Shown: positions 8,611 to 50,623 of the stretch, piece by piece | Layout of the letters: each line of letters begins with the position of its first letter | Numbering within the stretch: position 1 is the first letter of the stretch | Source: a virus | Reading direction: 5' to 3' (one strand) | DNA length: 64,000 bases | IMG/VR virus record: IMGVR_UViG_3300008952_001422 | Coordinates: 62,001 to 126,000 of that record | Program-made: the position numbers and the translations under genes | Notes under the pieces: model-generated | The model's database searches: none | The model's input: only the letters and a program-made list of their open reading frames with translations | What the model was told of the DNA's origin: nothing

Positions 8611-9366
8611 ATGCGTGATATTTTAAAGGATATTGTCAAACACACACATTCGCTAGGTATTATCCAAGCGGCTAAAGTGACAACAGATAAAGAGGGAACT
8701 ACAATCGATGCAATGGACGAAGACCGTACTGTTGTATTGAGTGGTAAATTACATGCACCAGTTCCTGAATTCGAAGGCAAGTTCGGTCTAGGAAGATTAA
8801 GTGTCTTAAGTGGATTACTTGACTATACTGGCGAAGACAAAGAAGGCAATCCTATTGTAGCAGATGTTAAAGTAGGAACAGAATCACGAAATGGTGAAGA
8901 TGTTACTACTGAACTTAACTTCTCTATGCCAGGTGGTTTTGATAGTTCATATCGAGTAATCGTAAGTGAATTAGTAGATGCACAAATCAAAACAGCAACT
9001 TTTAGAGGTGCGGCATGGAATGTAGAAATTATGCCAACACAAAAAGCAATCAAAGACTTACAATACTTTGCAGGTATTCTAGGTCAATTTGACCCACTAC
9101 TTACTGCGAGAACAGTGAATGGTAATTTAGTTTTCTATATCGGTGATAGTTCAACAGATAAAGTAGAACTTCCATTTGCAAACAATGTAGAGGGTGAACT
9201 AAAGACAGGTTGGAGTTTTCCATTGTCAACAGTTCTAACTATTCTTAGACTTAGTGATACAAGTACTATGAACATGAAGTTATCCGACCAAGGTGCGATG
9301 ATGATTTCAGTTGATAGTGGTTTAGGTTTATACGAGTACATTCTACCAGCAAAAGCCGGCAACTAA
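8611..9366 (+). CDS. 45: DNA polymerase sliding clamp (T4 gp45 type)
   Basis: This 251-residue protein has the gp45-like opening: a helix, then a strand, then the GKFGLGRLSVLSGLLDY segment that forms a clamp strand and helix. A second half follows with repeated two-domain logic and ends LGLYEYILPAK. It is slightly longer than T4 gp45. It trims replication and late transcription in T4 by encircling DNA; here it would tether the polymerase and probably the NPPY protein through their shared tails. It has its own perfect promoter, fitting its high demand. The late promoters in the window imply that it also serves as a transcription activator. Confidence 0.88.
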   Translation: MRDILKDIVKHTHSLGIIQAAKVTTDKEGTTIDAMDEDRTVVLSGKLHAPVPEFEGKFGLGRLSVLSGLLDYTGEDKEGNPIVADVKVGTESRNGEDVTTELNFSMPGGFDSSYRVIVSELVDAQIKTATFRGAAWNVEIMPTQKAIKDLQYFAGILGQFDPLLTARTVNGNLVFYIGDSSTDKVELPFANNVEGELKTGWSFPLSTVLTILRLSDTSTMNMKLSDQGAMMISVDSGLGLYEYILPAKAGN

Positions 9367-9390
9367 TTTATAATAATATTAGAGTTTTAT

Positions 9391-9398
9391 TATAAATA
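9391..9398 (+). promoter_or_regulatory. T4-type late promoter TATAAATA
   Basis: Perfect TATAAATA. Predicted +1 near 9404. An orphan GAGGAGG lies right at the predicted 5' end without a usable start codon after it. The next gene has its own AGGAG before the ATG at 9444. Confidence 0.75.
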
Positions 9399-9443
9399 CA
9401 TCGAGGAGGTTGTAACTGGTAAGACTCATTATAGGAGAAATGA

Positions 9444-9638
9444 ATGGGAAAAATCAACGCAGAGAAAATCAAAACACGCCTAATACACTTAAAAAAACAA
9501 CACAGAGACTTAGATGATGGTATTATAACTGCATTCAAGATGCACACAGATGACCAAGTTGTCTCTAAATTAAAACTTAAAAAGTTACATCTTAAAGAAG
9601 AAATTGTTCAATTAGAAAGAGACCTAGAAGAAATCTAG
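9444..9638 (+). CDS. YdcH/DUF465-like small coiled-coil protein
   Basis: A 64-residue, fully helical protein. It shows the YdcH pattern: L-K-x-x-H-x-x-L-D-x-x-I in the first half and L-K-x-x-L-K-E-E-I in the second, which form a helical hairpin. The function of the family is not established. The stop TAG shares a base with the GTG start of the apt gene. It is transcribed from the late promoter at 9391. Confidence 0.6.
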   Translation: MGKINAEKIKTRLIHLKKQHRDLDDGIITAFKMHTDDQVVSKLKLKKLHLKEEIVQLERDLEEI

Positions 9639-15672: not shown

Positions 15673-16803
15673 ATGAATACTAAAGTATCAACAAACGATT
15701 TAGATGTAAGAGTTGTCAGACCTAGTGATGTTAGGGCTGAACTTAACTATGCATTTAACAGAAAACGACCTGTATTTATTTGGGGTCCTCCTGGTGTTGG
15801 TAAATCAGAAATTGTAGATAGTATCACACAAGAAAGGTCAGGTTTTATGATTGACCTTAGACTTGCTCTGATGGAACCAACTGACTTAAGAGGTATTCCT
15901 TATTTCAACGAAAAAAATGGTACAATGGAATGGGCTACCCCTTCGGATTTACCTAGTCAAGAATTAGCAGACCAATATGAGTCCGTTATCTTATTTCTTG
16001 ACGAAATGAACCAAGCACCGCAATCAGTCCAAGCGGCGGCTTATCAGTTAATTCTAAACAGACGATTAGGTTCGTATGTTTTACCAGACAACGTTTTAAT
16101 CGTTGCGGCTGGAAACAGAGAGAGTGATAGAGGTGTTGCTTATAGAATGCCTTCACCACTTGCTAACAGATTTGTTCACTTAGAAATGGGTGTTGACTTT
16201 GAAGATTGGCAGACTTGGGCATTAGAGAATAAAATTCATTCTGATGTTGTAGGTTTCTTAACATCTAACAAGATGGACTTATTTAACTTTGACCCTAGAA
16301 CGGCTTCAAGAGCCTTTGCTACTCCAAGAAGTTGGACTTTTGTTTCAGAAATGTTACCAAAAGAAGGCGAAGAAATCAGTGATAGCAGGTTACACGACCT
16401 AATTGCTGGTACAGTTGGTGACGGAGTTGCTACCAAGTTCATGGCTCACAGAGCCATTTCTGGGAAGTTACCTGTTCCTGCTGATATTCTGAATGGTAAA
16501 GTTAAAACACTTTCTGTCGAGGCTAAAGAAATTTCAGCAATGTTTTCATTAACAACTTCATTATGTTATGAGTTGAAAGACTTTGTTGACAGAAACGGTA
16601 AAAAGAAAATGGACGAGTTGTACAAAATGGCTGACAACTTCTTCAATTTTATGATGGAAAACTTCGATACTGAAATGACAGTATTGGGTGGAAGAACTGC
16701 TCTTAAAGTTTACAAGTTACCTCTAGAACCTAGAAAAGTACCTTGTATTGAGAAGTTCTTCAAAAAGCATGGGAAACTTATTATTGAGGCCCATAATGCA
16801 TAA
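15673..16803 (+). CDS. MoxR-family AAA+ ATPase
   Basis: Walker A GPPGVGKSE (about residue 38), Walker B ILFLDEMNQAP (about 108), sensor I VAAGN (about 146) and an Arg-finger region PSPLANRFVHLE (about 161). This is the MoxR pattern of chaperone-like ATPases, which usually work with a VWA-domain partner. Such a partner is encoded at 23065-24384. 376 aa, complete. It has its own strong promoter and a strong terminator, so it is monocistronic. Targets are unknown; assembly or metal loading of a protein is the usual role of MoxR-VWA pairs. Confidence 0.88.
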   Translation: MNTKVSTNDLDVRVVRPSDVRAELNYAFNRKRPVFIWGPPGVGKSEIVDSITQERSGFMIDLRLALMEPTDLRGIPYFNEKNGTMEWATPSDLPSQELADQYESVILFLDEMNQAPQSVQAAAYQLILNRRLGSYVLPDNVLIVAAGNRESDRGVAYRMPSPLANRFVHLEMGVDFEDWQTWALENKIHSDVVGFLTSNKMDLFNFDPRTASRAFATPRSWTFVSEMLPKEGEEISDSRLHDLIAGTVGDGVATKFMAHRAISGKLPVPADILNGKVKTLSVEAKEISAMFSLTTSLCYELKDFVDRNGKKKMDELYKMADNFFNFMMENFDTEMTVLGGRTALKVYKLPLEPRKVPCIEKFFKKHGKLIIEAHNA

Positions 16804-16833
16804 ATCTCAATAATACATAGTAATAACCACTCG

Positions 16834-16868
16834 AAAAGAGGGATGTCTATTGACTTCCCTCTTTTTTT
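16834..16868 (+). terminator. Rho-independent terminator after MoxR gene
   Basis: Stem AAAAGAGGGA/TCCCTCTTTT (10 bp) with a 12-base loop, then Ts. The -35 hexamer of the next promoter (16850-16855) lies in the loop, so terminator and promoter share sequence. Confidence 0.85.
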
Positions 16869-16878
16869 ATGGTACAAT
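16850..16878 (+). promoter_or_regulatory. Sigma70-type promoter of the halogenase operon (leaderless)
   Basis: TTGACT (16850-16855), a 17-base spacer and TACAAT (16873-16878) preceded by TGg. The seventh base after the -10 is the A of the ATG at 16885. No Shine-Dalgarno sequence precedes this ATG. Confidence 0.75.
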
Positions 16879-16884
16879 GATACT

Positions 16885-18264
16885 ATGATATTTGATACCA
16901 TAAAGCAGATGGCTCGGGACCACGGGTCAAAGACGGCTCTTGTCTGCAAGGATAAGCAATATACCTATTCTGAACTTATAAAAAGTGTAGAAAAACTGTC
17001 TGCCATTTTATCAACTGCTATAAAACCTGGTGAAAAAGTTCTGTTTGCAAGTGAAAAAGAATATCACTATGTGAGAATGGTACTTGCTTGTGATATCTTA
17101 GGTATAACATTCATTCCAACTCATCCTAATCTACCAGAAGATTACTTATTTGATATTGTCGAAGCCTGTAAACCAGACCATGTTATAATGAATGAGAAAG
17201 ATGCATTAGAACTAAAACCCCACAATAAAGGTCTAGTGTATTCTAAAAACGAGAACTCTATCTATACGGTATTATTCACAAGTGGCACAAGTGGTACTCC
17301 ATCTGCGGTTACTCACTCCGCCGCCGCCTGTATGTTTGGATGTTTAAATAGTATTTCAATACACGATTTATCATCTGATGATGTAATATTATCACAACTT
17401 CCTCCATCAACGATTGCAGGACTATACTTATATGCACTCCCAGGATTACTTAAAGGTGCTACTGTAATTATTGAAAAGTTCGAACCAAGACGATATATAG
17501 AATTATGTAACAAATGGAAGCCTACTATCGGCACAATGGTACCAGCAATGATACTTGCTTTACAAAAAGTTCGTAAATGGAAAGATTATAGTATGTCACA
17601 TTATCGACAGTTGAGTATTGGCAGTACCGCAATTACTAATGAAGTAATTGACTTATTGTTTGATAAGGGAGTTCCACTTGTTAGACATCTTTATGGATGT
17701 ACAGAAACACACGTACCTGCACTTACATATCTTATTGAACCCGATACTAAACACAAATTGCAACTGTCAGTATCACAATTTTATGAGCATAAATTAGATA
17801 GATTTGGTGTATTGTGGTTGAAAGGACCAACAGTAACAAAACGATACTTGAATAGTGAAGCAACCGTTATTGATGCCGAAGGATATTGGTGTACTGGTGA
17901 TGTATTTGAGAGAGAACATAACGAGTTAGTATTTAAGACACGAGAGAAAGATTTGATTAACGTAAATAGTTTCAATGTGTCACCGGTAGCAGTAGAGAAC
18001 GCCATCCTTGCTTGTGATGGAGTAGATGAAGTATGTGTTACATATAGAGAACGAGGTCTTGGAGAGAATGAATTAGTAGCCGTCATACGAAGTACTGATA
18101 AAAGAATGAATAAATACTACATAACAGAACAAATAAAGACAAAGTTAATGCACTACGAATTGCCTAAAGATATCATTATTGTGACAGAAGATTTGCCACG
18201 AAATGCAATGGGTAAAATTAAAAGACACACAGTAAAGAAGACATTTTGTGAGAAGGAGGATTAA
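16885..18264 (+). CDS. Acyl/aryl-adenylate ligase (ANL superfamily)
   Basis: Activates a carboxylic acid with ATP and passes it to CoA or a carrier. Core motifs are all present: A3 LFTSGTSGTPSAV (about residue 131), A5 YGCTETH (about 270), A7 GYWCTGDVF (about 332), A8 REKDLINVNSFNVSP (about 353), and A10 PRNAMGKIKR with the catalytic Lys near the C terminus. 459 aa from ATG 16885. An in-frame ATG at 16843 would lie inside the terminator/promoter and is rejected. The first gene of a four-gene operon; zero-base junction with the halogenase. The acid substrate cannot be read from the sequence; no fused carrier domain. Confidence 0.92.
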   Translation: MIFDTIKQMARDHGSKTALVCKDKQYTYSELIKSVEKLSAILSTAIKPGEKVLFASEKEYHYVRMVLACDILGITFIPTHPNLPEDYLFDIVEACKPDHVIMNEKDALELKPHNKGLVYSKNENSIYTVLFTSGTSGTPSAVTHSAAACMFGCLNSISIHDLSSDDVILSQLPPSTIAGLYLYALPGLLKGATVIIEKFEPRRYIELCNKWKPTIGTMVPAMILALQKVRKWKDYSMSHYRQLSIGSTAITNEVIDLLFDKGVPLVRHLYGCTETHVPALTYLIEPDTKHKLQLSVSQFYEHKLDRFGVLWLKGPTVTKRYLNSEATVIDAEGYWCTGDVFEREHNELVFKTREKDLINVNSFNVSPVAVENAILACDGVDEVCVTYRERGLGENELVAVIRSTDKRMNKYYITEQIKTKLMHYELPKDIIIVTEDLPRNAMGKIKRHTVKKTFCEKED

Positions 18265-20010
18265 ATGAAATCTAAAGTTAAAAGTATTGTCGTAGTTGGT
18301 GGCGGTGTAGGTGGCTGGTTCTCAGCGGCTTGGATGGCAGTGAAACATCCTAATATCAAAGTAACCCTTATTGAAAGTGATAAAGTTGGAATTATAGGAG
18401 TAGGCGAAAGTACGTTGCCTCAACTGGGTACAATGATGAAAGAGATTGGATTAGAAGAAAGAGATTGGATGACCCACACAAATTCTATTTACAAACTAGG
18501 TAATAAATTTGTTGGTTGGAACATCGAAGGCAAACGTGACCATGCAACTAATCATTTTTGGTGTTCACGATGGGACGAACAATATTATGGTTTCTCTTAT
18601 GCACTACCTGAAAAGAAAATTACATCAGGTCTATATCATCCATTAGAAAAGGAAGACCTATTTAGAAATTCTAAAGGGCAACCTGGCGTTGATGATAAAT
18701 GGAACGATTATTGGTTACAGTTATTACGTGACGGTCGTAAGAACCAGTGGGAAATGGCACAAGATATGCAAGAAGGAACATATCTTATGGATTATAATAA
18801 GGCGCCGTATGATTGGGATGATAATTTATTAGTTGGCACTTGGCAAGGTGTTACATATCATGTTGATGCAAATAGATTTCCAGAAATAATCAGAGAAAAG
18901 GTTGCAATTCCTCACGGTGTTAATCACATACATGGTCATATCAATGATATTAAGAAAGACGATGATGGTTATATTACCTCAGTTGTTACCGAAGAAGGTG
19001 AAGAGTTTGAGGCTGATTTATTCCTTGATTGTACTGGTTTCGCCCGAGTACTAACAAAAACAATGAATGTAGAATGGATACCGATGCCAGAAATAACAAC
19101 TACAAGTTTAGTTGTTGCACCAATAAAATACAAGGATGTAAAAAAAGAATTTCGTCCATACACTATGAGTAATGCAATGGATGAGGGATGGTTATTTGTT
19201 ATACCATTGTATAATCGAATGGGCTCTGGATACGTATATGATAGTAGCGAGATATCTAAAGAAGATGCAATGAAGAAATATAAAAAGTATTGGGAAGGTT
19301 ACGAATTTATCCAAGAACCACAACATATGTCCTGGGATGCAGGAAAGTATAAAACTCAATGGAATAAAAATCTTGTATCAATTGGCATGTGTGGTTCTAT
19401 GATTGAACCGATGGAAGCAAACATTCTTGGCATTGCTCAAGCAGGATTTCAATTATGTAGTAATTTAATTTCTCGTGCAGAGGAAAAAGACGAAGTTATT
19501 GGTAGAGGTTCACTCCACGCATACAACAGGAACATAGATTGGTTAGTTGAAACAATTAAACGATTTATTTTATTTCATTATACATTAACTGAAAGAGAAG
19601 ATACTCCATTCTGGAAGAAAATGAAACAAATGGGTATTGACGAAAAACATAAAGAAGCATGTTGGAGAGAATATAGGATACCTGCCAACAATGCTGAATC
19701 AGGAGTTCCAGATTTTATGTGGGCGATGATGGCGGTTGCTATGAATAAGTTCGATGATGATATTAAACTAAACACAAAACCACATCTAATGGAACAAGCA
19801 AATGAAAAATTCTCTTGGCTTCGAACATCAAGCAAACGAAATGGTGTGAATGCACCAAATGCCTATGAGTGGCATAAGAAGGTACTCTTTAGCAACAAGA
19901 CACATGATGAAGTCCTTCAGGAGAATCTTAAAAAATATTCAAAGATTGTTAAAACTAAGGGAAAGGTAAAGTCATCCTCCAGCGGAACAATTACCTCACC
20001 TGGAAATTAA
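18265..20010 (+). CDS. Flavin-dependent halogenase (tryptophan-halogenase family)
   Basis: Uses FADH2, O2 and a halide to halogenate an electron-rich substrate. The FAD motif is VVGGGVGGWFSA (residues 10-21). GIIGVGESTLP (43-52) is the flavin loop. Lys77 in SIYKLGNKFVGW aligns with the catalytic Lys of PrnA/RebH. GWLFVIPL (about 309) resembles the family's WxWxIP motif with Phe in place of the second Trp. MIEPMEANILG (about 378) is the C-terminal flavin site. 581 aa, full length. No flavin reductase gene is seen nearby, so host reductase is presumed. A marine cyanophage halogenase of this family (VirX1) is known. Substrate unknown here. Confidence 0.93.
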   Translation: MKSKVKSIVVVGGGVGGWFSAAWMAVKHPNIKVTLIESDKVGIIGVGESTLPQLGTMMKEIGLEERDWMTHTNSIYKLGNKFVGWNIEGKRDHATNHFWCSRWDEQYYGFSYALPEKKITSGLYHPLEKEDLFRNSKGQPGVDDKWNDYWLQLLRDGRKNQWEMAQDMQEGTYLMDYNKAPYDWDDNLLVGTWQGVTYHVDANRFPEIIREKVAIPHGVNHIHGHINDIKKDDDGYITSVVTEEGEEFEADLFLDCTGFARVLTKTMNVEWIPMPEITTTSLVVAPIKYKDVKKEFRPYTMSNAMDEGWLFVIPLYNRMGSGYVYDSSEISKEDAMKKYKKYWEGYEFIQEPQHMSWDAGKYKTQWNKNLVSIGMCGSMIEPMEANILGIAQAGFQLCSNLISRAEEKDEVIGRGSLHAYNRNIDWLVETIKRFILFHYTLTEREDTPFWKKMKQMGIDEKHKEACWREYRIPANNAESGVPDFMWAMMAVAMNKFDDDIKLNTKPHLMEQANEKFSWLRTSSKRNGVNAPNAYEWHKKVLFSNKTHDEVLQENLKKYSKIVKTKGKVKSSSSGTITSPGN

Positions 20011-20627
20011 TGAACGTTTTAGAAACCTGGATAGGTGCTGACAATTTAGAATTCAAGTTAGTTGAATATACTCCTAGCATACTGGGTGATGTTCAGGCAT
20101 TTTGTGAAGCCTGTGCGGCAGAAGGTATTGAAAATAACTCCAGTTTACAAGAAATGAAGTTTGGTAAATGGGGTGACTTAGAACAATGGCACATGGTATA
20201 TCATGGTGATAAAATTATTAGCATAAGTGGGTCGCATTATTATCCACATTTTCATAAAGATTGTTATAGAATAATGTATCGAATGGCTACATTGAAAGCA
20301 TATCGTGGGATGGCAAGTGAGAAGATATCCCTTAGAAAAATGCAACACAACTTTTGCTTTAGAGCAATTATGCCAGCACAAGTTGATTGGTGTTTAACAA
20401 AAGGAGCAACTGAAATTATCGCAACTACTAATTCGCCAGATAATATCGATTATGGTGGGACGATGCATAAGGTTCATAATCACGGACGTAGACGCAGACC
20501 AAATACTAAATCTGATAATATGACATTAATTCAGAAAGATGCTGATGTTTACAATACAAAACAAGATATTTGGAGAGTAAATGTTAGAGATTTTGCAACA
20601 GGTAAAAAGATTAAATTTAAGAAATGA
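20010..20627 (+). CDS. GNAT-like acyltransferase (tentative)
   Basis: 205 residues. ISISGSHYYPHF followed by YRIMYRMATLKAYRGM resembles the beta4-beta5 and acyl-CoA-binding loop layout of GNAT enzymes. The C-terminal part is basic (HGRRRRPNTKS, GKKIKFKK). The ATG overlaps the halogenase stop (TAATG), and its stop overlaps the ketosynthase start (ATGA), so the four genes are translationally coupled. GNAT assignment is by pattern only; an unrelated operon-specific enzyme is possible. Confidence 0.5.
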   Translation: MNVLETWIGADNLEFKLVEYTPSILGDVQAFCEACAAEGIENNSSLQEMKFGKWGDLEQWHMVYHGDKIISISGSHYYPHFHKDCYRIMYRMATLKAYRGMASEKISLRKMQHNFCFRAIMPAQVDWCLTKGATEIIATTNSPDNIDYGGTMHKVHNHGRRRRPNTKSDNMTLIQKDADVYNTKQDIWRVNVRDFATGKKIKFKK

Positions 20628-21775
20628 CAGTATATATTAACGCAATCAGTGGATTAACTCCCTTTGGTAATTTAGACCAAACATGGAAAGGCATAACAGA
20701 TAATAAAGTATGTTATAGTGAACTAAGAAAGTTTCCATGGGACAAATATACTAGGTCTAAAGTTGCAGGTGAAGTGAAATTTAATGCCGAAGATTATTCT
20801 AGTATATCTGAAAGAGACCGTGAGAAGATGCCAGAGTATATGCAATGGGCATTAGCATCAGCACAGGAACTATTAGATGGTAAAGAGTTAAACAAAGAAA
20901 GAACTGGTGTAATGGTTTCATCAGCATTAAGTATGCACCTTGAGACTTTAAGGGCTAATGAAAAAGATGCAGGTAACACTTTCACTTTTACACCAAACAT
21001 GATATCTAATAATATTAACATTCAATATGGATTTACTGGTCCTAGTACTATGACTTCTAGTGCCTGTTCTACAGGAATGTATAGTGTTATTATTGGATGT
21101 ATGTTAATAGAAACTGGACAAGCAGATAATATAATTGCTGGTGCATTTGATGATTCCGTATCACCAGATTCCTATAAACAGTTCGGAAAACTTAGGGCAT
21201 TATCTACAAAATTCAATAATACTCCAGAAAAGGCATCTCGACCTTGGGACACAAAACGTGATGGATTGGTACTTAGTGAGGGTGGAGCAATGTTCTTATT
21301 ATCTAATGAGAAGACATCAGAGACATTGGCAGAGATATCTGGTTACTCCATGAACAATGATGCTTATCAAGTCGTGGCACCTCATCCTGAGGGGATTATG
21401 ATAGAGAAATGCATGAAAGATACGTTAAATGGACGTATTCCAGACTTAATTAATGCTCATGCCACATCTACTCCTATGGGCGATTATATTGAAATAGACG
21501 CACTTAATCGGCTTGGACTACAAGATGTATGGGTAACTGCAAATAAGTCGCAAATAGGGCATCTCATGGGGGCGGCCGGGGCTATGGAGTTGGCTTTAAG
21601 TGTACTATCATTGAAACATGGTGCAATAACTCCGTCATTAAATATAGATTACTTAGAAGATGGCTACAACATAAAGTATACTCCAACCACCAAGAACTAT
21701 ATGGTAGATTCAGTTCTATGTAATAGTTTCGGATTTGGTGGTGCAAATGCAAGTATTTTACTGTCTAAAACTTGA
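20624..21775 (+). CDS. Beta-ketoacyl-ACP synthase (KAS I/II type)
   Basis: Condensing enzyme of fatty-acid or polyketide synthesis. The active-site Cys is in SSACSTGMYS (about residue 148). The two catalytic His residues are in NAHATSTPMGD (about 278) and NKSQIGHLMGAAGA (about 312). The C-terminal NSFGFGGANA glycine motif is complete. 383 aa, close to KAS length. Cys-His-His retention means condensation, not just decarboxylation, is possible. No acyl carrier protein gene is visible in this window, so a host ACP or a gene elsewhere must supply it. Last gene of the halogenase operon; the next promoter overlaps its stop. Confidence 0.94.
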   Translation: MTVYINAISGLTPFGNLDQTWKGITDNKVCYSELRKFPWDKYTRSKVAGEVKFNAEDYSSISERDREKMPEYMQWALASAQELLDGKELNKERTGVMVSSALSMHLETLRANEKDAGNTFTFTPNMISNNINIQYGFTGPSTMTSSACSTGMYSVIIGCMLIETGQADNIIAGAFDDSVSPDSYKQFGKLRALSTKFNNTPEKASRPWDTKRDGLVLSEGGAMFLLSNEKTSETLAEISGYSMNNDAYQVVAPHPEGIMIEKCMKDTLNGRIPDLINAHATSTPMGDYIEIDALNRLGLQDVWVTANKSQIGHLMGAAGAMELALSVLSLKHGAITPSLNIDYLEDGYNIKYTPTTKNYMVDSVLCNSFGFGGANASILLSKT

Positions 21776-21799
21776 CAGGATTAACATTTGTGTTATAAT
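21772..21799 (+). promoter_or_regulatory. Sigma70-type promoter, extended -10
   Basis: TTGACA (21772-21777), a 16-base spacer and TATAAT (21794-21799) preceded by TGt. Begins inside the last codons of the ketosynthase gene and marks the end of that operon. Confidence 0.82.
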
Positions 21800-23064: not shown

Positions 23065-24384
23065 ATGACAACTGTTACGAATGAAAAAGAATTAGACAAA
23101 GCATTAGACGATGTTTTGTCTGCTAACGGTGTTGAGATAGATAATACTCTTCCTGCTCCAGTAGTATTCGATTATACTGATGAAGAAGTTAAAGAGATGA
23201 TTGTAAGTAGTCGAGTTAGACTTCTTATTAGACATCCATTTTTTGGTACACTTGCTACTAGACTTAAAATGGTCGAGGCAGAATGGTGTCCAACTGCCGC
23301 AACTGACGGTAGACATTTTTATTATAATTCAGATTTCTTTAGAACTTTAACTCCTGAAGAAATTGATTTTGTTGTTGGTCACGAAGTTATGCATTGTGTT
23401 TATGAACATTGTGGTGAGTTCGGTAGATTAATGGACAAAAAAGAAGAAGACCGAGATATGAAACTTTGGAATATTGCGGCTGACTATAAAGTTAACCAAG
23501 CATTAGTTGAGTCCGGTGTCGGTACTATGCCGAAACAAGCATTACACGATAGAAAATATTACAGAAGTTATACAGAAGAAATTTACGAACATCTTAAAGA
23601 ATCTGGTGAGGCTGAGGATAAACAAACATTAGACGTTCATATGTTTGGTGATGGTGATGAAAAAGGTAAAGAAGGTGAGGGTAATGACCCAACTGGAAGA
23701 AAAGCACCTATTAAAGTTTCACCTCAAGAAGCCCAAGCGATTAAAGACCAGATGAAACAAGCAGTATTACAAGCGGCTCAATCAACCGATGCAGGAACTC
23801 TTCCTGGCGATATCAAAAGAATTATAAGTGGTATGACTAATCCTAAAATGGATTGGAGAGAACTTCTTAATATCTCTATTCAGAGTTTAGTAAAAAGTGA
23901 TTTCACATTTATGAGACAATCTCGTAAATCAAAGTCAATGGGAATTTATCTTCCAGGTCAAAAGAATGAAGATAAGATTGATGTTGCAATTGGTCTTGAT
24001 GTTTCAGGTTCTATTTCATCTTCAATGATTGAAGAATTTCTTGGTGAAGTTCACGGAATTATGCAACAGTTTCAAGATTTTAAGATTAGAATTTGGACAT
24101 TTGATACACAAGTAAACAAAGAAGGTTATAAAGAATTTGACCCATATAATGCTGACGAACTTAAGAACTACGAGATTGTCGGCGGTGGTGGTACTGATTT
24201 TGAATGTAACTATAACTTTATGAAGGAAAACGATATTACTCCTGATAAGTTTATTATGTTTACAGATGGTATGCCTTGGGATTCCTGGGGTGATGAAAGT
24301 TATTGTGATAGTTTATTTGTTATTCACGGTACTGACCAAATTGTTCCACCTTTCGGTGAACACGCCTATTACAGCCAAGCATAA
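23065..24384 (+). CDS. Metallopeptidase-fold plus VWA-like protein (MoxR partner)
   Basis: Residues 1-150 form a metallopeptidase-like domain with an HExxH motif, in VVGHEVMHCVYEHCGE (about residue 104). Residues about 305-439 form a VWA domain with a MIDAS-type DVSGSISSS (about 312), GGGGTDFECN and MFTDGMPW. This is the DUF2201-like layout found beside MoxR ATPases. The MoxR gene is 6 kb upstream, so the pair are split by the halogenase operon. 439 aa, complete. Role in phage unknown; regulated assembly or proteolysis of a target is the family-based guess. Confidence 0.85.
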   Translation: MTTVTNEKELDKALDDVLSANGVEIDNTLPAPVVFDYTDEEVKEMIVSSRVRLLIRHPFFGTLATRLKMVEAEWCPTAATDGRHFYYNSDFFRTLTPEEIDFVVGHEVMHCVYEHCGEFGRLMDKKEEDRDMKLWNIAADYKVNQALVESGVGTMPKQALHDRKYYRSYTEEIYEHLKESGEAEDKQTLDVHMFGDGDEKGKEGEGNDPTGRKAPIKVSPQEAQAIKDQMKQAVLQAAQSTDAGTLPGDIKRIISGMTNPKMDWRELLNISIQSLVKSDFTFMRQSRKSKSMGIYLPGQKNEDKIDVAIGLDVSGSISSSMIEEFLGEVHGIMQQFQDFKIRIWTFDTQVNKEGYKEFDPYNADELKNYEIVGGGGTDFECNYNFMKENDITPDKFIMFTDGMPWDSWGDESYCDSLFVIHGTDQIVPPFGEHAYYSQA

Positions 24385-30867: not shown

Positions 30868-32043
30868 TTATTTCTCCTTATTAAATGATGTATCACCTGG
30901 ATAAATTGGTATCATTGCACCAGGTTTACGTTTTGGTATTTTACTGTCTGCACTACTGACACAACTGTCACTAATACAAACTTTAGGGGCATCAAATAAC
31001 TTGAACCCACTCTCTACATACCCAAGTGGCTTATCCGCACAACTGTACGAACGTTTTATTGAACCATCTGGCTCCCTAATAATGATACCTTTGAACCCAC
31101 TAGTACATTCCCATCCCTTAAACTTATTAAAGTTAAAGGCATTAAAACGTTCTGCTTGGTCCATGTACCATTTCTTTCCTTTACTATCTTGAAATTCTAC
31201 TTGCATAATTGGTGGAACAGACTTGTCATCTCCGTTATCTATATCCATTTTCCACATACCTACTTTAGGTTTTGGTCTCGTAACTTTTATGCCAGTTTCT
31301 TTCTGTAATTCTGTAGTGTAGTCACGTTGCGGCATGCCATTACGCATTGTTTCTAATTGTTTATCAGTGTACCCAGACACAACAAACGAAGCAGTTGGGT
31401 CACTCTGAGGTTTTAGTGTAACATTTATCCCACGGTTATGAAAGTACATTGCATTATCCCAATCTCTATCAAACCAGTCAGGTACTAAAACCATATTGAT
31501 TGTTACTTGTACATCATGTTCCATACAGAACAATAACTTGTCTGCAAAGACTACCTTCTCTGCGTATTCAGTATGAAATGATGCAGTAATACTTGCTCTA
31601 TGCATCTTAGCAACAGTATCACAATATGTCTGATGCCATTTCATATTACGTGACATATTAGTTGTCATATGTACTGATGTATAATTTGTATTCTCTACAT
31701 CATTTGCTATGTGATTGAGTATGTCCAGATATCCAGGATGGAATGTTGGTTCACCACCCGACAAACTGAAATGAAATGAATTGAAACCATTGCCTCTTGC
31801 TTGTCTTTTAATCTCGTCAATTGTTGCTAGACATAGTTCAGTCGGTCTATGGTCTTTTCTATCACTTCTAGCATACGGCCAACAATAAGAACACTTATAG
31901 TTACAGAATCTTCCCAGTAACCAACTTACTGAAAACAAATCTCTATATAATAGTGTTCGTTGTCCTACACTAACAAGGTCATCATATGGTATCTTAGTGA
32001 AATCATATTGTGACCAATATAATTCATCTTTTTCTTTATTCAT
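30868..32043 (-). CDS. Radical SAM enzyme with C-terminal Cys motif
   Basis: 391 residues. The [4Fe-4S]-SAM motif is CNYKCSYC (Cys47, 51, 54). SGGEPT (about 93) is the SAM-binding GGE motif. A C-terminal Cys set (WECTSG, SYSCADKP, VCISDSCVSSADSK) suggests an auxiliary cluster as in SPASM or twitch enzymes. The core is unusually far from the N terminus. The ATG overlaps the upstream stop (ATGA). It is the distal member of the array, next to the repetitive basic protein. Substrate unknown. Confidence 0.9.
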   Translation of the reverse strand: MNKEKDELYWSQYDFTKIPYDDLVSVGQRTLLYRDLFSVSWLLGRFCNYKCSYCWPYARSDRKDHRPTELCLATIDEIKRQARGNGFNSFHFSLSGGEPTFHPGYLDILNHIANDVENTNYTSVHMTTNMSRNMKWHQTYCDTVAKMHRASITASFHTEYAEKVVFADKLLFCMEHDVQVTINMVLVPDWFDRDWDNAMYFHNRGINVTLKPQSDPTASFVVSGYTDKQLETMRNGMPQRDYTTELQKETGIKVTRPKPKVGMWKMDIDNGDDKSVPPIMQVEFQDSKGKKWYMDQAERFNAFNFNKFKGWECTSGFKGIIIREPDGSIKRSYSCADKPLGYVESGFKLFDAPKVCISDSCVSSADSKIPKRKPGAMIPIYPGDTSFNKEK

Positions 32044-32396
32044 TTACGACTCATTCCACATGGCTCATTAAACGTAACATTAAAGAATCGTTGTTTCGTT
32101 TCATATGCCTGTTCAATTCTCTTATAATCTATTCCAACTGCACTTAAAATGTGGCGCATATCTTCTCTGTCTTCATCATTCATTTGCTCTCGTACTTGGT
32201 CTTTTACATCTTGTGAAATCATATCATAGATACTACCATAACACCATTCACAAAATGTAACTGGTATTACACCAAAGTATCCTTGCATTCCACCACGGTC
32301 TTCGTCATATTCACTATTACAAACACTACACGTTGATGGTGGTGTAAATGTTAAAGTATCATTGTCCTGTATAGTCTTTACATTCGTCTTTTTCAT
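32040..32396 (-). CDS. Small zinc-finger protein of unknown function
   Basis: 118 residues from ATG 32396, chosen for its AGGAG ribosome site; ATG 32420 is in frame upstream but has no site. Two CxxC pairs (CSVC near residue 23, CEWC near 48) form one zinc site or a small cluster site, followed by a helical acidic part. Overlaps the radical SAM start (ATGA). Could be an adaptor or chaperone for that enzyme. Confidence 0.6.
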   Translation of the reverse strand: MKKTNVKTIQDNDTLTFTPPSTCSVCNSEYDEDRGGMQGYFGVIPVTFCEWCYGSIYDMISQDVKDQVREQMNDEDREDMRHILSAVGIDYKRIEQAYETKQRFFNVTFNEPCGMSRK

Positions 32397-32532
32397 TTGC
32401 TCTCCTGTTACGTTCAACAATATATCTATACCATTTCATTAACCAAAGCACTCTTTGAGGATAGTGGTCAGGATTAGGTATATTTTCTTCTCCAAAATAA
32501 TCAATAAATCCTTGTATTTCTTCGTCACTCAT
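32359..32532 (-). CDS. 57-aa protein of unknown function
   Basis: MSDEEIQGFIDYFGEENIPN, then HYPQRVLWLMKWYRYIVERNRR: an acidic helix, a Pro/Asn turn and an aromatic helix. I recall similar short phage sequences. The ATG overlaps the SPASM gene's stop (ATGA), and the 3' end overlaps the zinc-finger gene by 38 bases in another frame. Confidence 0.5.
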   Translation of the reverse strand: MSDEEIQGFIDYFGEENIPNPDHYPQRVLWLMKWYRYIVERNRRANEKDECKDYTGQ

Positions 32533-32846
32533 AGTGGTTTATCTCTTTCTTCTTTTGCACAGTTTGTTTGACAAACTTCTAAGCCTGTCATATTATTTTC
32601 AATCCATTCAAAGATTGGACCTTCTATAATCTCTTCCATAGAATAATGATGTATATTATGATACTTCTTATCTATGCCTGATTCATTCCATAACCCAGTC
32701 ATTCTTCTTGCAATGCCAAACCAACAACAAGGTAATACATATCCCTTTGATGTGATGTAAAGATTTCCCATTGTCTTATGGAATGTTCCTTTGCCATTTC
32801 CAATCGTTGCTTTACATTTAGGTTCTATTTCAAAAGTCTTGGTCAT
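32529..32846 (-). CDS. Stand-alone SPASM-type domain (C-terminal half of a split radical SAM enzyme)
   Basis: 105 residues without the SAM-cluster motif. KCKATIG, a Gly-rich turn, YITSKGYVLPCCWFGIAR and VCQTNCAKEE match the C-terminal cluster-binding domain of the enzyme at 44588-45679 (KCKVAAEK, YLSAEGLILPCCWVAGSM, VCAQKCGEEF). The ATG overlaps the stop of the radical SAM core gene (ATGA), so both are made together and probably form one complex. The Cys residues for the auxiliary cluster are kept. Confidence 0.78.
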   Translation of the reverse strand: MTKTFEIEPKCKATIGNGKGTFHKTMGNLYITSKGYVLPCCWFGIARRMTGLWNESGIDKKYHNIHHYSMEEIIEGPIFEWIENNMTGLEVCQTNCAKEERDKPL

Positions 32847-33553
32847 GCAGTTACTCCTTCATAACCTGCCGGCAAAACGATTTCATCTATTTCATTCTCA
32901 GGATTAGTATTTCTAAAAGACTTGATAACTACAAATCTTTCAAATTTCTCTGCTTCTGATAACTTTTTAATGTCTGCTATCTGATGCTGATTCCATTTGA
33001 ATACAATAAATTGCCAACCTGCCCTACCACCTGAAGAGATATATGCTCTCCAGTTCTTCTGTAAAGTTTTCCAATCAACATTCTTTCTATAGAGATGATT
33101 AGTTTCTTCATCTCCATCTATTCCAAAAACAACGGTCAGACGATTATTCAATTCTTTAGACAGTTTCCCTAATTCACTCCAGAAACTTTCATTTCTTGAC
33201 CCACCGTTAACATGAACCCAAATGTTTTTCTCTTTATTATCTAAGTAATAAAAATATTTTATAATTTCTATTACATCTGGATTTATTACAGGTTCATCAA
33301 CATTACCACACAAAACTATTTCATCTAAGTGTGTCCATTTATTTGGTAAAAAAGTCTTCTTTATATCTGCTATTGATAGAAAAGTATTGTTTAGTTCAAT
33401 ATCATAATCTAATGTAAAATCTTTTCGTTCTTCAGATGTTTCATTCTGAAGTTCAATCATATAGTTTCTTTCACATTGTGAACAGAAAGCATTACAGTAG
33501 TTGGTTATTTCTAACTGTAACCGTCCTATATTACCTTCTTTTGCCCAAATCAT
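32843..33553 (-). CDS. Radical SAM core protein (N-terminal half of a split enzyme)
   Basis: 236 residues. Cluster motif CNAFCSQC (Cys20, 24, 27). CGNVDEPVINPD (about 82) replaces the GGE motif, exactly as CGNFGDPIIATD does in the gene at 44588-45679. FGIDGDEETNHLYRKNV is the next conserved block. It ends where the SPASM domain should begin, and that domain is encoded as the next ORF with an ATGA overlap. The core alone is a complete TIM-like barrel by length. Confidence 0.88.
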   Translation of the reverse strand: MIWAKEGNIGRLQLEITNYCNAFCSQCERNYMIELQNETSEERKDFTLDYDIELNNTFLSIADIKKTFLPNKWTHLDEIVLCGNVDEPVINPDVIEIIKYFYYLDNKEKNIWVHVNGGSRNESFWSELGKLSKELNNRLTVVFGIDGDEETNHLYRKNVDWKTLQKNWRAYISSGGRAGWQFIVFKWNQHQIADIKKLSEAEKFERFVVIKSFRNTNPENEIDEIVLPAGYEGVTA

Positions 33554-33556
33554 CTA

Positions 33557-34360
33557 TCACTCTATGTCCAGTTCTTTCCAGTCTTTAAGAGAATCTATTG
33601 CTGAATAGTTGTATATCTCTGCTGTTGCCCATTCTTTCTCAATACACCACCAACATCCGTTACATGGTTCTGTAAAGTAATTAGTTTCTTCAATCCAACC
33701 TTCACAAGACCTAGTTAATGAACCAAGGTCAAGAAGTTTGCCATATTTTTTATAAAAGGCCAATACTATTCTTTTGTCTGAATGAATAAATGGTAAGTAT
33801 TCTGTGTGGCGGTCGCATTTAGATTCTGCTCTTTCATCAATCCACCATTGACGATTAGTCCAATCTCTACGTTCTGCACGTCTGGGCCATCTCTTTCTCC
33901 AAACTGGCTTACCAATTTCTTCAGGTGGATTAACAGTTACACCATTGAATAATGCTGTTATGTTATACTTCTTAACCATATCCCATGATAATCTAGTTCC
34001 ATTATCGATATAGTCTTTTGCTGTTGTAGGTCTAATCATATGCTCACCAAATTTGACATTTGGAAATTCTTCTTTAACAAAAGCAAGTGCTTTTTTGGCA
34101 TGATGATGTTGCCATGGCTTTTCTTCGTGAATACATGACCAGATGTAGATAGTAACATCTAAATTGTTCTTATCAATGTGATATGCTAATAGCCATAACA
34201 ATATTGATGAATCCATACCACCTGACATTCCAATGCCAATGTTTTTGTGAAAGCCCCATTCTTTTGATTCGAATGGCAACTTTATTTTGTATTCTTCGGG
34301 ATGTACTTCTTCACAATCGTTCCCTCTTTTATATACGATTGCTGTGTCTTCTACTATCAT
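33557..34360 (-). CDS. QueC-like PP-loop ATP pyrophosphatase
   Basis: 267 residues. PP-loop SGGMDSS (residues 46-52) activates a substrate by adenylation. The C-terminal LTRSCEGW with CNGCWWCIEKEW resembles the four-Cys zinc site of QueC (TxSC, CGxCxxC). The middle FNGVTVNPPEEIG is shared with the second PP-loop gene at 41659 but is not in canonical QueC. FolE, QueD and QueE are not in the window, so preQ0 synthesis is not established. Sandwiched between radical SAM genes with 1-3 base gaps. Confidence 0.82.
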   Translation of the reverse strand: MIVEDTAIVYKRGNDCEEVHPEEYKIKLPFESKEWGFHKNIGIGMSGGMDSSILLWLLAYHIDKNNLDVTIYIWSCIHEEKPWQHHHAKKALAFVKEEFPNVKFGEHMIRPTTAKDYIDNGTRLSWDMVKKYNITALFNGVTVNPPEEIGKPVWRKRWPRRAERRDWTNRQWWIDERAESKCDRHTEYLPFIHSDKRIVLAFYKKYGKLLDLGSLTRSCEGWIEETNYFTEPCNGCWWCIEKEWATAEIYNYSAIDSLKDWKELDIE

Positions 34361-34361
34361 T

Positions 34362-35567
34362 TTAATATATTCCTTTTTTGGTTAGTTTTATGTTCAAATC
34401 GGAGCACCTCGTTGTGCATACTTTTAGTTTTGGATTATTTTCATCGCCATATTCATTAGAAAAACTGTCTTCTAAATCTTTAGTAAAGAAGTCATGACTT
34501 ATTATATCATGAAATGAATGCGAATGCAAGTTGTTCCATCCTTCATTGTACTTTTTAGTGAATCTGAGCCAGTTTTCTCGTTCTCCAGCATCAAATTCGG
34601 TTTTATATTGATAATTTGAATTCATCCAACAGCATCTCCATACAGAACCATCATGAGATATTTGATATCTATTATTGGCTCCCCATATACACGTAATGCC
34701 TGCAGTTTCTCTTATTTTCTCTAAGTTCTGATGTGCATCAAGTTTTGTGTCAATTGGAATATCCTTGATGACTTCTTTTGCCTTCTTTAAGTTTTCATTA
34801 ACTAATTCTTCACTAATGTTCAGCAAATCTTCATCTTCTTCTTTCATCTTATCGAGTTCATTCAATTTTTCACTCAAAGCAATCTGTACTGCTTTTTGTT
34901 CAACTCTTTGAATTCTGTTTCTTTGAAATTTTTGAAATCCATGTTTTGCGGCTAGTATCTTTGCCTGTTCCTCTAGTTCGTCATTGAAATCAAAAGGAAT
35001 CATTTTCCATACAGCCTGACCACCACCACTAATAAATGCTTCTGCATTTTCTATTATTTTATCAAAGTCTGTGGAAATTCTGTACATATTCTGTGTTTTG
35101 TTATCTATGCCATCTAAGTCAAACATTACATGATGTCTATTTGGTAGATGTTCGTTTAATATTTCACCAAGTTTTTTCCAAAAGGCTGGTGTCTTATATG
35201 AACCGTTTGTTGAAATAGTCATATCGTGTAATCCATTAAACTCAGGACTTAATTGTCCTATCTTCTCGTCACCAAATGGCTCAACGTCACCTTTTAGTTT
35301 TGAGGCTGAATATTCTATCATTTCTAAAAAGTCTGGATGAAAAGGACTATCACCAAAACTTCCATCGTATGTCATATACTTCACTTTAGATTTCTCAGCA
35401 AGGTCATCAATAAGTTTATTGTGTACTTCTAAAGGCAAGTTCCAGTTCTTAGGTGGAGCAGATACTAAATCTGTATTTGGATTAAATACTTTATGTCTAA
35501 TACAGCCAGGACATTTTGCTTGGCAGTTAGACGTTACCTCAATCGTTATTTCCATATCTCTAATCAT
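34362..35567 (-). CDS. Radical SAM/SPASM enzyme
   Basis: 401 residues. The core motif is CQAKCPGC (Cys15, 19, 22) right at the N terminus. YDGSFGDSPFHPDF stands for the GGE region, and MFDLDGIDNKTQNMYR is the conserved DG block. A long charged helical insert (about residues 225-290) precedes the SPASM region, which has CIWGANNRYQISHDGSVWRC with CWMNSN and VCTTRCSDL. ATG 35567 overlaps the upstream stop by eight bases; ATG 35555 is possible. Auxiliary-cluster enzymes of this kind modify peptides or proteins, but the substrate is not known. Confidence 0.9.
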   Translation of the reverse strand: MIRDMEITIEVTSNCQAKCPGCIRHKVFNPNTDLVSAPPKNWNLPLEVHNKLIDDLAEKSKVKYMTYDGSFGDSPFHPDFLEMIEYSASKLKGDVEPFGDEKIGQLSPEFNGLHDMTISTNGSYKTPAFWKKLGEILNEHLPNRHHVMFDLDGIDNKTQNMYRISTDFDKIIENAEAFISGGGQAVWKMIPFDFNDELEEQAKILAAKHGFQKFQRNRIQRVEQKAVQIALSEKLNELDKMKEEDEDLLNISEELVNENLKKAKEVIKDIPIDTKLDAHQNLEKIRETAGITCIWGANNRYQISHDGSVWRCCWMNSNYQYKTEFDAGERENWLRFTKKYNEGWNNLHSHSFHDIISHDFFTKDLEDSFSNEYGDENNPKLKVCTTRCSDLNIKLTKKGIY

Positions 35568-36729
35568 TTATATAATTCCATACTTTTGGTGCCATTGTTT
35601 CACATGATACATTATATAGTTCATCCTGTAGTCGAACTAGTTCTTTAAATTTGTTACTATCAGTTGTTCTTTTACCTTTCAATCGTTGGGCAAATTCAGC
35701 AGTGAAATCATTCATAATTAAATCATCTAGTATTTCATCTTTCGTTTCTTCTTCTAAATTTACAATATCCAATGCTTGTGGCCAATGAACAAATGTTGTT
35801 CTTATATTTACTTTTTTTGTTGGTATAGTTGCCTTAATGTCCAAGAAATCATTGTATATTTGGTTCATATAAAATGCATGATACGCCGTTGTAGTACACA
35901 CAAATAAGAAATTGTGAACAAGTGGTGCTACTTCCTTAATGTTATTTAGAACTGTCTGATAGTCTCCGTCTGTTCTAAAGTAGTTAAATAAGTCACCTGT
36001 TCCGTCTAATGATACTGTAACACTTACTCTTTTGAAATGAGGCCATAATGTTTTAACTGTCCAACCTTTATATTCTAGTATACTCATGTTAGTATTATAG
36101 ACCAGAGATATCTTTTTCGTATCAATTCTCGGGTCATCAATCATTCTTTGTAATGTCTTATACATATCTCTTGTATAGAATGGTTCACCACCAGAAAACT
36201 CAATGTTCTCTACTGTAGGTAATACATTTTCAAATAGGTCATCCATAACTCGGTCGTCTGGAATCTCTATCTTGTTTGTAGGAAAAGAGATATGACTAAA
36301 ATTGAAATCTTTTCTTAACTTTAATTCTATTGTTGGATTATCTTTACCAGTCTGTTCAAATCTAGAGTTTGATGATGTATCACAATGTCTACATTTATAG
36401 TTACAGGCACGTGTCATCTTCAGTTGTAAATCTCTTATATGAATTGTATCTGAATCATAATCTGGCTCTGAATGAATAGTATTCTCTAGTGACCTAGTTC
36501 TATACGAAGATAATCCAGACTCTTCCTGTATCTGACAATCAATACAACCTGCAGGCCATTCATCGTTTCTTAACTGCTGTCGAACTTTAATAAAGTCGCT
36601 GTTGTTAATCACTTGTGATGGTAGTTTATCTAAATCAGATTCTACTAAATCATTTCGTTTGAATCTAAAGCAAGGAGCATATCCACCAGACTTTAAATCT
36701 AAATGTGACCATGCATATTTACATTTCAT
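35560..36729 (-). CDS. Radical SAM enzyme with N-terminal twitch-like Cys domain
   Basis: 389 residues. Unlike SPASM enzymes, the extra Cys set lies ahead of the barrel: Cys3, Cys20, Cys62 and Cys65 (KCKYAW, APCFRF, GCIDC). The core is CNYKCRHC (Cys109, 113, 116), then EFSGGEPFYTRDM (about 180) and VSLDGTGDLFNYFR. The same layout recurs in the next four array genes, so the group arose by duplication. Overlaps its upstream neighbour by four bases. Confidence 0.9.
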   Translation of the reverse strand: MKCKYAWSHLDLKSGGYAPCFRFKRNDLVESDLDKLPSQVINNSDFIKVRQQLRNDEWPAGCIDCQIQEESGLSSYRTRSLENTIHSEPDYDSDTIHIRDLQLKMTRACNYKCRHCDTSSNSRFEQTGKDNPTIELKLRKDFNFSHISFPTNKIEIPDDRVMDDLFENVLPTVENIEFSGGEPFYTRDMYKTLQRMIDDPRIDTKKISLVYNTNMSILEYKGWTVKTLWPHFKRVSVTVSLDGTGDLFNYFRTDGDYQTVLNNIKEVAPLVHNFLFVCTTTAYHAFYMNQIYNDFLDIKATIPTKKVNIRTTFVHWPQALDIVNLEEETKDEILDDLIMNDFTAEFAQRLKGKRTTDSNKFKELVRLQDELYNVSCETMAPKVWNYIND

Positions 36730-38018
36730 TGTAGTTCTCCTGCTTCGTATCTCTGTTGTATATATTTAAGTGAGAAATCTGGGTCTTTCATCATCTTATC
36801 TACTTCAGTATATCCCTCTAATTCAGTACATAATTTATAAAGAATATCTTTTTCTTTCATTGCTTGTACTAACTCAGGATTATAATCTTCTATATTAGAA
36901 TCATAATATTCTGTATCTAATAGATGAGTTTTTCTCAAAAATAAATACCATGCATATTCTTTTTCTTCTTGTGGTACTCTATTCTTTTTTAGTATTTTAA
37001 TAGCCCTATCTATTTTTACTTGTGCGGCTGGTAAACGTTCTTTGCTTTTCCATTCATCTAATATCCATTGCTCGTACCAATCAGGTGCTAAGTGTGGACA
37101 ATACTCGCCAGACTCTACCATCTTAAAAGACACAGACCAACTTGGATGGTTCTTAGCATAGTAATCCATATCATCTGCAAATCCATTTAGATTTAATGTA
37201 CTGTATGTCGAATGTATATGTCCCTTTTCTATATTCTTTAATTGTGATAGATATTCTTCATAGATGTCTAATGATTCTTTCCAACCTGGTGAACCCCAAC
37301 GTTGATATGAATTATAATCATTACATCCATCCACTGAACCAGTCAATATGATTTTTCTGAAACGATTTAGTTTCTCAATCATTACATCATCTAATCTCTT
37401 TGTAGTGTTTGTAATTATTTCTAGTAACACATCTTCTACTTTACATTTTTCAATCAACCAATCTATCAACTTTGGAAAGTTTGGTGAGAAGAATGGTTCT
37501 CCACCTAATACTTTAATCTTTGTTAGATGTTGCCAATCTACATTCAATGATTTTAGATATTCAATTCTTTGTTTTGGTATTGTTGTAGGTTGTCTACCTC
37601 GCATTCCTTTTTCATTTAATAGAAAGTCATCTCGATAATATAACTTACTTGAAAACAAAGAGTCACACATCTTACATTGTAGATTACATAGGTTGTCTAA
37701 ACTCAATTCTATAGAACGTAACTTGTCAAAGTCTTCAGTTAATTTTGCTTGTTCTAATTTAAAATGTACATTATTGGCAGCCCATCGCATTGACTCATTA
37801 CCTTCAGAATAACATAGAGAACATTCTTTCGATTTCTTTCCCTCTAACATGTTCTTTCTTAGCCATCTATACTTATCATCGAATGGCTTCATTGCATCTT
37901 CTTCTATATGGTCTTCATCATTGCCTACTGTAAATCTACAGCAAGGTCTGGCAACATTCTTCATAGAAACTGCCATATGATTCCATGCTAACATACATAC
38001 TACACCGTTATCTTTCAT
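36726..38018 (-). CDS. Radical SAM enzyme with N-terminal twitch-like Cys domain
   Basis: 430 residues. N-terminal Cys8, Cys26/27, Cys66 and Cys69 (VCMLAWNH, RPCCRF, CSLC). Core CNLQCKMC (Cys111, 115, 118), KVLGGEPFFSPNF (about 167) and GSVDGCNDYNSYQRWG. The C-terminal part is longer than in its neighbours. ATGA overlap upstream and downstream. Substrate unknown. Confidence 0.9.
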   Translation of the reverse strand: MKDNGVVCMLAWNHMAVSMKNVARPCCRFTVGNDEDHIEEDAMKPFDDKYRWLRKNMLEGKKSKECSLCYSEGNESMRWAANNVHFKLEQAKLTEDFDKLRSIELSLDNLCNLQCKMCDSLFSSKLYYRDDFLLNEKGMRGRQPTTIPKQRIEYLKSLNVDWQHLTKIKVLGGEPFFSPNFPKLIDWLIEKCKVEDVLLEIITNTTKRLDDVMIEKLNRFRKIILTGSVDGCNDYNSYQRWGSPGWKESLDIYEEYLSQLKNIEKGHIHSTYSTLNLNGFADDMDYYAKNHPSWSVSFKMVESGEYCPHLAPDWYEQWILDEWKSKERLPAAQVKIDRAIKILKKNRVPQEEKEYAWYLFLRKTHLLDTEYYDSNIEDYNPELVQAMKEKDILYKLCTELEGYTEVDKMMKDPDFSLKYIQQRYEAGELQ

Positions 38019-41649: not shown

Positions 41650-41658
41650 AATATATCC

Positions 41659-44542: not shown

Positions 44543-44552
44543 TTGTTACCTT

Positions 44553-44570
44553 CTGATATTATTATATCAG
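44553..44570 (-). other. Hairpin overlapping late start site
   Basis: CTGATAT-AATA-ATATCAG, a perfect 7-bp inverted repeat. It begins right after GATAAATA, so late RNAs (predicted +1 near 44565) lose most of the 5' arm. AAGG of the downstream ribosome site abuts the 3' arm. Confidence 0.5.
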
Positions 44571-44578
44571 TATTTATC
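44571..44578 (-). promoter_or_regulatory. T4-type late promoter GATAAATA
   Basis: Located in the 45-base gap between two radical SAM genes and directed toward the gene ending at 43007. It indicates that the array is, at least from here on, transcribed late. Confidence 0.65.
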
Positions 44579-44587
44579 TGTTGAATT

Positions 44588-50594: not shown

Positions 50595-50623
50595 ATTATA
50601 ACAGATTTTTAGTCGGATGTAAA
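50595..50623 (-). promoter_or_regulatory. Sigma70-type promoter, extended -10
   Basis: On the minus strand: TTTACA (50623-50618), a 17-base spacer and TATAAT (50600-50595) preceded by TGt. The segment AAATCTGTTATAATA is almost repeated upstream of the iscU-like gene at 53739. Drives the glycosyltransferase-like gene. Confidence 0.72.

Follow-up and report, generated by a model that had tools for sequence, protein, structure and literature searches.

A ligase, halogenase, GNAT and ketosynthase operon of a marine jumbo-phage lineage and its possible link to a phage acyl carrier protein

Introduction

What might a virus make with an acid-activating enzyme, a halogenase, a GNAT-like protein and a condensing enzyme encoded in one operon? 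The question is raised by a 64,000-nucleotide stretch of viral DNA (the window), positions 62,001–126,000 of the 127,031-bp IMG/VR record IMGVR_UViG_3300008952_001422, which carries the four genes that we call LIG, HAL, G3 and KS, together the cassette. The reading we favor, with a probability of about 0.55, is that this is a phage-encoded cassette of a marine jumbo-phage lineage, linked to an acyl carrier protein (ACP), whose product would be a halogenated acyl small molecule, most likely an acyl amide.

Operon structure

LIG, HAL, G3 and KS form a single tightly coupled plus-strand operon (window 16885–21775) with all genes in frame (Table 1). The LIG stop codon abuts the HAL start with a 0-base junction, HAL and G3 overlap at TAATG (20010), and G3 and KS overlap at ATGA (20624). 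This four-gene content and these junctions had been given in a preliminary description of the stretch and are borne out by the sequence and by Pfam; the promoters that it placed at 16850 and 21772 hold up as well, on their consensus scores. The strict promoter pattern occurs five times on the plus strand of the window (10200, 15614, 16850, 21772 and 22633), against 0.4 occurrences expected from shuffled sequence.

The exact pattern of the cassette promoter recurs in 13 of the 15 loci examined (loci bear L numbers); of the remaining two, L013 has a one-mismatch −10 box and in L037 the promoter is displaced further upstream. Its −10 box ends 6 nt before the LIG ATG, a gap of 5–9 nt in 13/15 loci, which suggests that the LIG message may be leaderless. 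We prefer 16885 as the LIG start because the alternative ATG at 16843 lies upstream of the −10 box. A hairpin similar to the terminator-like one downstream of the MoxR gene was seen at 13 of the 15 cassette loci, with differing stem sequences. Terminator and promoter overlap at 16833–16885: the hairpin, which would close the MoxR transcript, has the cassette promoter in its loop and tail, with the −35 box inside the loop, an arrangement kept in most relatives. An Rfam scan of the window found no RNA family.

Table 1. Positions of the cassette, its signals and associated genes. Window numbering is used except for the last three rows, which follow the numbering of the whole record.
Feature	Position	Strand	Basis
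LIG, ANL-superfamily adenylate-forming ligase, 459 aa	16885..18264	+	PF00501 E 1e-42 and PF13193
HAL, flavin-dependent (tryptophan-type) halogenase, 581 aa	18265..20010	+	PF04820 E 2.6e-85; phrog_2928
G3, predicted GNAT-fold protein, 205 aa	20010..20627	+	AlphaFold model and Foldseek
KS, FabF-type beta-ketoacyl-ACP synthase, 383 aa	20624..21775	+	PF00109 E 5.5e-37 and PF02801
Intrinsic-terminator-like hairpin	16833..16868	+	G+C-rich stem, T7 tail, 3′ of MoxR gene; RNAfold −20.0 kcal/mol
Cassette promoter, TTGACT-N17-TACAAT	16850..16878	+	Consensus score 10/12
Shine-Dalgarno AAGGAGG for HAL	18253..18259	+	Sequence
Next promoter, TTGACA-N16-TATAAT, opening the next transcription unit	21772..21799	+	Consensus score 12/12
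MoxR-type AAA ATPase, left anchor of insertion site, outside the pathway	15673..16803	+	phrog_1297 ATPase; synteny
VWA-type protein, right anchor of insertion site, outside the pathway	23065..24384	+	Sequence and synteny only
ACP, 78 aa	47400-47636		PF00550 E 2.8e-11; NCBIfam acyl carrier protein about 1e-17
AcpS holo-ACP synthase	9197-9577		TIGR00516 94.2 bits against a cut-off of 59.8
Ferredoxin-NADP/flavin-reductase-like gene	13449-14192		Matches below curated cut-offs

Inheritance at the MoxR/VWA site

Searches of IMG/VR with each of the four proteins returned largely the same contigs with the same gene order, and the order LIG-HAL-G3-KS is kept down to 56–65% identity for HAL and KS. The co-occurrence in related phages, on which the preliminary description had made a shared pathway depend, is thereby found. 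With the MoxR ATPase as a neutral anchor we collected 80 IMG/VR loci, 62 of them spanning MoxR to VWA, and defined genotypes at 95% MoxR identity. All four genes are full length in 25 of the 62 spanning loci (13 genotypes) and none is in 36 (21 genotypes); the remaining locus (1 genotype) has only a divergent G3. Full-length LIG, HAL and KS are accordingly all missing from 37/62 loci (22 genotypes), and no mixed states of these three were seen. In most empty loci MoxR lies close to VWA.

All four genes are under purifying selection, with ratios of nonsynonymous to synonymous divergence (dN/dS) of 0.10–0.22 against relatives, although in the most distant pair dS approaches saturation. At one locus (L037:12305-13459) KS has a dS of about 1.9, against about 0.4 for the adjoining LIG, HAL and G3, which suggests that this KS allele was replaced by recombination.

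Six contigs with the same MoxR/VWA site (L133, L134, L135, L144, L145 and L130) carry a truncated LIG of ~350 aa, without an intact A3 motif and without the C-terminal domain. They have neither KS nor canonical HAL, and a divergent GNAT stands beside the ligase in most; LIG is therefore degraded where HAL and KS are missing. The other cargo of these contigs comprises a DUF6356-like gene, a pyridoxal-phosphate (PLP) enzyme, a short second ligase, or a different halogenase.

The phage carrier protein

The preliminary description had listed an ACP and a flavin reductase as absent from the window and had supposed that a host ACP would be used. We likewise found no ACP within the window; both an ACP and an AcpS are, however, encoded elsewhere in this virus record. 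The ACP match to PF00550 is above cut-off, and its serine attachment site lies in NADSIDSVE. With an ACP and a phosphopantetheinyl transferase (PPTase) of its own, the phage is less likely to depend on a host ACP. For flavin, a reductase-like gene is likewise present elsewhere in the record, at scores below curated cut-offs, and might supply reduced flavin.

An ACP was found in 12 of the 13 records of at least 60 kb that carry the cassette and in 1 of the 11 such records whose MoxR/VWA locus is empty, the two groups offering similar amounts of sequence. Fisher's test gives p 8.9e-5 uncorrected for relatedness, and 1.1e-3 once near-identical records are roughly collapsed. Since the records are related and mostly fragments, this link is an association rather than proof.

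The pairing of the ACP gene with an IscA-like neighbor recurs in relatives. Several divergent relatives have a second ACP, in some cases adjoined by a radical SAM gene and a family of ~333 aa. That family, with an invariant DSxHAGS, adjoins the second ACP at L068/L069:1444-2681 and in L077, and directly follows KS at L031:14935-15933; its structure prediction is poor (pLDDT 51).

The four proteins

The residues that the preliminary description had called intact in ligase, halogenase and ketosynthase prove invariant across 12 divergent phages, for LIG in its full-length copies. LIG has the Pfam domains AMP-binding and AMP-binding_C, and every full-length copy in these phages has the A3, A5, A7 and A8 motifs and the A10 lysine. 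Its nearest solved chains are acyl-, feruloyl-, 4-coumaroyl- and malonyl-CoA synthetases. Compared with fatty acyl-AMP ligases (FAALs; definition taken from PMC11837247), LIG is short (459 aa) and has its best matches among CoA ligases, a comparison in which the FAAL-specific insertion was not directly mapped.

KS matches the FabF structure 4jga with E 8e-61. The NCBIfam fabF model gives 269 bits, below its cut-off of 493.75, so that KS is FabF-like and not an equivalog. C148, H279, K308, H313 and the GFGG loop (F369-G373) are invariant across the 12 phages. A cassette-bearing relative of 342 kb has this single KS only, and no KS was found in the empty-locus records searched.

PDB matches of HAL include LooH, Thal, VirX1, PrnA and RebH. 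The glycines of its FAD motif GxGxxG (G12, G14 and G17) are invariant, as are K77 and E384, which align with the corresponding region of LooH and 6ul2 and which we take to be the counterparts of the catalytic K79 and E346 of PrnA. The region of the WxWxIP motif reads W309-x-F-x-I-P/S/T, the second tryptophan being replaced by phenylalanine. The position aligned to the histidine of the FYHPFG segment, one of the tryptophan-recognition residues of tryptophan halogenases, is tyrosine or phenylalanine in all 12 phages, and on this mark HAL falls outside the tryptophan halogenases. By sequence similarity it also falls outside the carrier-dependent (variant B) class: the CmlS model gives HAL 19 bits against a cut-off of 900, and no enzyme of the PltA/CndH/CmlS type is among 30 PDB matches. 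In sequence, HAL resembles the free-substrate (variant A) halogenases. The earlier suggestion that a carrier-bound acid is halogenated is weakened by this resemblance and by the lack of a carrier-dependent structure among those matches, while the relation drawn to VirX1 stands for the family (6qgm, E 4e-55) and goes no further than that level. As HAL is free-substrate-like and lacks the tryptophan-recognition histidine, neither free tryptophan nor a tethered acyl group is an obvious substrate. We know of no viral halogenase whose natural substrate has been established.

G3 has no match in Pfam, PHROG or NCBIfam profiles. Its AlphaFold model (pLDDT 78.9, with low confidence at residues ~103–109) has a GNAT fold: the best Foldseek match is a GNAT, with E 1.8e-6, probability 1.00 and a moderate TM-score of about 0.5–0.6. 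The GNAT-like label given to the third gene is borne out by this match of the predicted structure. We do not claim an N-acyl synthase of the LuxI or FeeM type, neither of which is among the 50 Foldseek matches listed.

Proposed pathway and alternatives

In the pathway we propose, LIG would adenylate a carboxylic acid and load it on a phosphopantetheine thiol, in all likelihood that of the phage ACP once the phage AcpS has activated it. KS would carry out a FabF-type condensation with malonyl-ACP of the host, and in divergent members the chain would also be desaturated by one or two membrane desaturases. G3, as a GNAT, would move the acyl group onto an amine or amino acid, and HAL would chlorinate or brominate a partner or product that is electron-rich, probably aromatic and probably free. 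Early or midway through infection, these steps would yield a small halogenated acyl compound, most likely an acyl amide; the gene set would suit one formed with an aromatic amine or amino acid. We hold it somewhat more tentatively that this carrier-based viral gene cluster, with its own ACP, PPTase, ligase, KS, GNAT, halogenase and in some cases desaturases, serves to make a dedicated halogenated molecule for signaling, inhibition or protection during infection.

The shared pathway put forward in the preliminary description gains support from the all-or-none inheritance, from purifying selection and from the phage ACP that accompanies the cassette; there is now less room in it for a host ACP and for halogenation on the carrier. 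Several observations weigh against the halogenated acyl product. Because the phages with the cassette are related to one another, the counts lack independence. The ACP gene is not inside the operon: it lies 31 kb away in the record, beside an IscA-like gene, and its product may belong to a different process. Of the 21 long records searched for AcpS, only 2 yielded it, the present one and the 342-kb relative. LIG is most similar to CoA ligases, not to carrier-loading FAALs, and HAL appears to belong with the free-substrate enzymes. Among the proteins scanned, a subset of the open reading frames, we recognized no ketoreductase, dehydratase or thioesterase.

The same genes could instead remodel host lipids, with the cassette, the ACP and the relatives' desaturases altering host fatty acids or membranes in aid of infection, the halogenase in a lipid or redox role, and no discrete secreted small molecule. 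KS is indeed FabF-type, desaturases, which when carried by phages are proposed to change membrane fluidity (PMC7300359), are inserted in relatives, and predicted roseobacter prophages carry fabG-acpP-fabF (PMC8224337). Yet lipid remodeling would leave unexplained both the GNAT and an invariant halogenase that keeps its catalytic lysine and glutamate in every KS-bearing locus, and no fabG-like reductase was recognized beside the cassette; we regard it as unlikely. Less probable still is that the target of halogenase and GNAT is a macromolecule of phage or host (a structural protein, tRNA or DNA), for whose modification LIG, ACP and KS would supply an acyl or polyketide-like group. Such a role would suit the halogenases of cultured cyanophages and pelagiphages, most of which stand in structural or 2-oxoglutarate (2OG)-oxygenase clusters, the frequency of proteins as GNAT targets, and loci L107-L110, where a ligase, a halogenase and a GNAT-like gene adjoin structural-looking repeat proteins. 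The cassette, though, sits in a replication/MoxR region away from structural genes, and KS and desaturases would be unusual for this purpose.

That four independent auxiliary genes merely hitchhike in one hypervariable site, with no shared pathway, is largely contradicted and very improbable. The MoxR-VWA site does vary, some relatives carrying a truncated ligase, a DUF6356-like gene, a PLP enzyme or a different halogenase. But the absence of mixed states of full-length genes across the 62 spanning loci, the fixed order, the overlapping junctions and the purifying selection all run counter to independent carriage, as do the truncation of LIG where HAL and KS are missing and the way the ACP tracks the cassette.

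If the carrier-linked pathway to a halogenated acyl molecule is real, phages of planktonic bacteria can operate their own assembly line for small molecules rather than enhance just one reaction of the host. In either event, genetic linkage here joins a viral halogenase to enzymes for acid activation and condensation, to a GNAT and to a carrier protein of the phage, a small and definable gene set.

Desaturases and related modules

In divergent relatives, one or two genes for membrane desaturase-like proteins are inserted at the HAL/G3 junction, the G3/KS junction or both, or follow KS. One type is mostly above the Pfam FA_desaturase cut-off; the other, of 241 aa and following HAL, has only the His-box motifs and a weak profile match. 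A desaturase was sought in the present record and not found.

In divergent viruses, L107-L110 (e.g., L109:8664-12014) carry a module of a short AMP ligase, a halogenase (31% identical) and a GNAT-like gene, preceded in L109 by a DUF6356-like gene. No KS lies beside this module, and a search of two of these records gave no ACP. In one phage whose MoxR/VWA site is empty, radical SAM-like, desaturase, GNAT-like and oxygenase-like genes stand together elsewhere (L182:13153-16354).

Elsewhere in the window, positions 30868-46854 on the minus strand, plus 50609-52165, hold a dense minus-strand block encoding at least eight proteins with matches to radical SAM profiles, one of them scoring under the Pfam cut-off. 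A Nol-like carbamoyltransferase, a TauE transporter and an aminotransferase-like gene are close by. The block looks like another biosynthetic or surface-modification cluster. Window 13456-14202 matches eukaryotic-type phosphomannomutase (PF03332, E 4e-24).

The virus and the origin of the cassette

The DNA polymerase is 48% identical to that of Sinorhizobium phage Phosso, 46% to Agrobacterium phage Atu_ph07 and 42% to Salmonella phage Munch, which places the virus near jumbo myoviruses. Given this placement and the 342-kb relative, the 127-kb record is probably a genome fragment.

We found no cellular version or donor of the cassette: scans of genome contigs with G3 and HAL alignments gave pattern matches and no relative, a negative that carries little weight because the scans were pattern-seeded. 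On plasmids, homologues of HAL and KS reach only about 25–35% identity. No relative of G3 was found in cultured phages. Cultured-phage matches for KS, LIG, ACP and AcpS were not used, being mostly unannotated or bacterial-looking records filed as phage.

Comparison with known systems

The components are of known kinds. In the literature searched (open-licence papers), queries on phage halogenases with ACP or KS pathways included, we met no report of them linked and inherited together along with a carrier protein of the phage; the unfamiliarity of a phage operon with both acid-activating and condensing enzymes, remarked on in the preliminary description, persists in that literature.

VirX1 and other halogenases of cyanophages (Kyanoviridae) are, like HAL, viral members of the Trp_halogenase family with conserved catalytic lysine and glutamate. 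Those of cultured cyanophages and pelagiphages are about 24–29% identical to HAL (tblastn) and, unlike HAL, lie mostly among structural and 2OG-Fe(II) oxygenase genes with no annotated ligase or ketosynthase nearby. A survey of cyanophages counted halogenases in 20/153 and ACP in 2/153 (PMC10452541). Predicted Rhodobacteraceae prophages with fabG-acpP-fabF (PMC8224337) have a phage-associated ACP and FabF in common with the cassette, but they retain the order of the host fatty-acid operon, and their descriptions mention no accompanying halogenase, ligase or GNAT. Desaturases of cyanophages and polar viruses are phage-carried, as in the divergent relatives of the cassette; they are described as lipid-fluidity genes, proposed to alter the membrane (PMC7300359), and not as members of a halogenase/KS operon.

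The nearest bacterial logic is that of fatty-acid-activating front ends in natural-product clusters, such as the one for jamaicamide (JamA FAAL, desaturase and ACP; PMC11837247), which shares with the phage system an acid-activating ligase, an ACP, a desaturase (on the phage side in relatives only) and a halogenated product class. The phage cassette differs in doing without modular polyketide synthases or nonribosomal peptide synthetases, in a ligase nearer to CoA ligases than to FAALs, and in having a free-standing FabF-type KS together with a GNAT.

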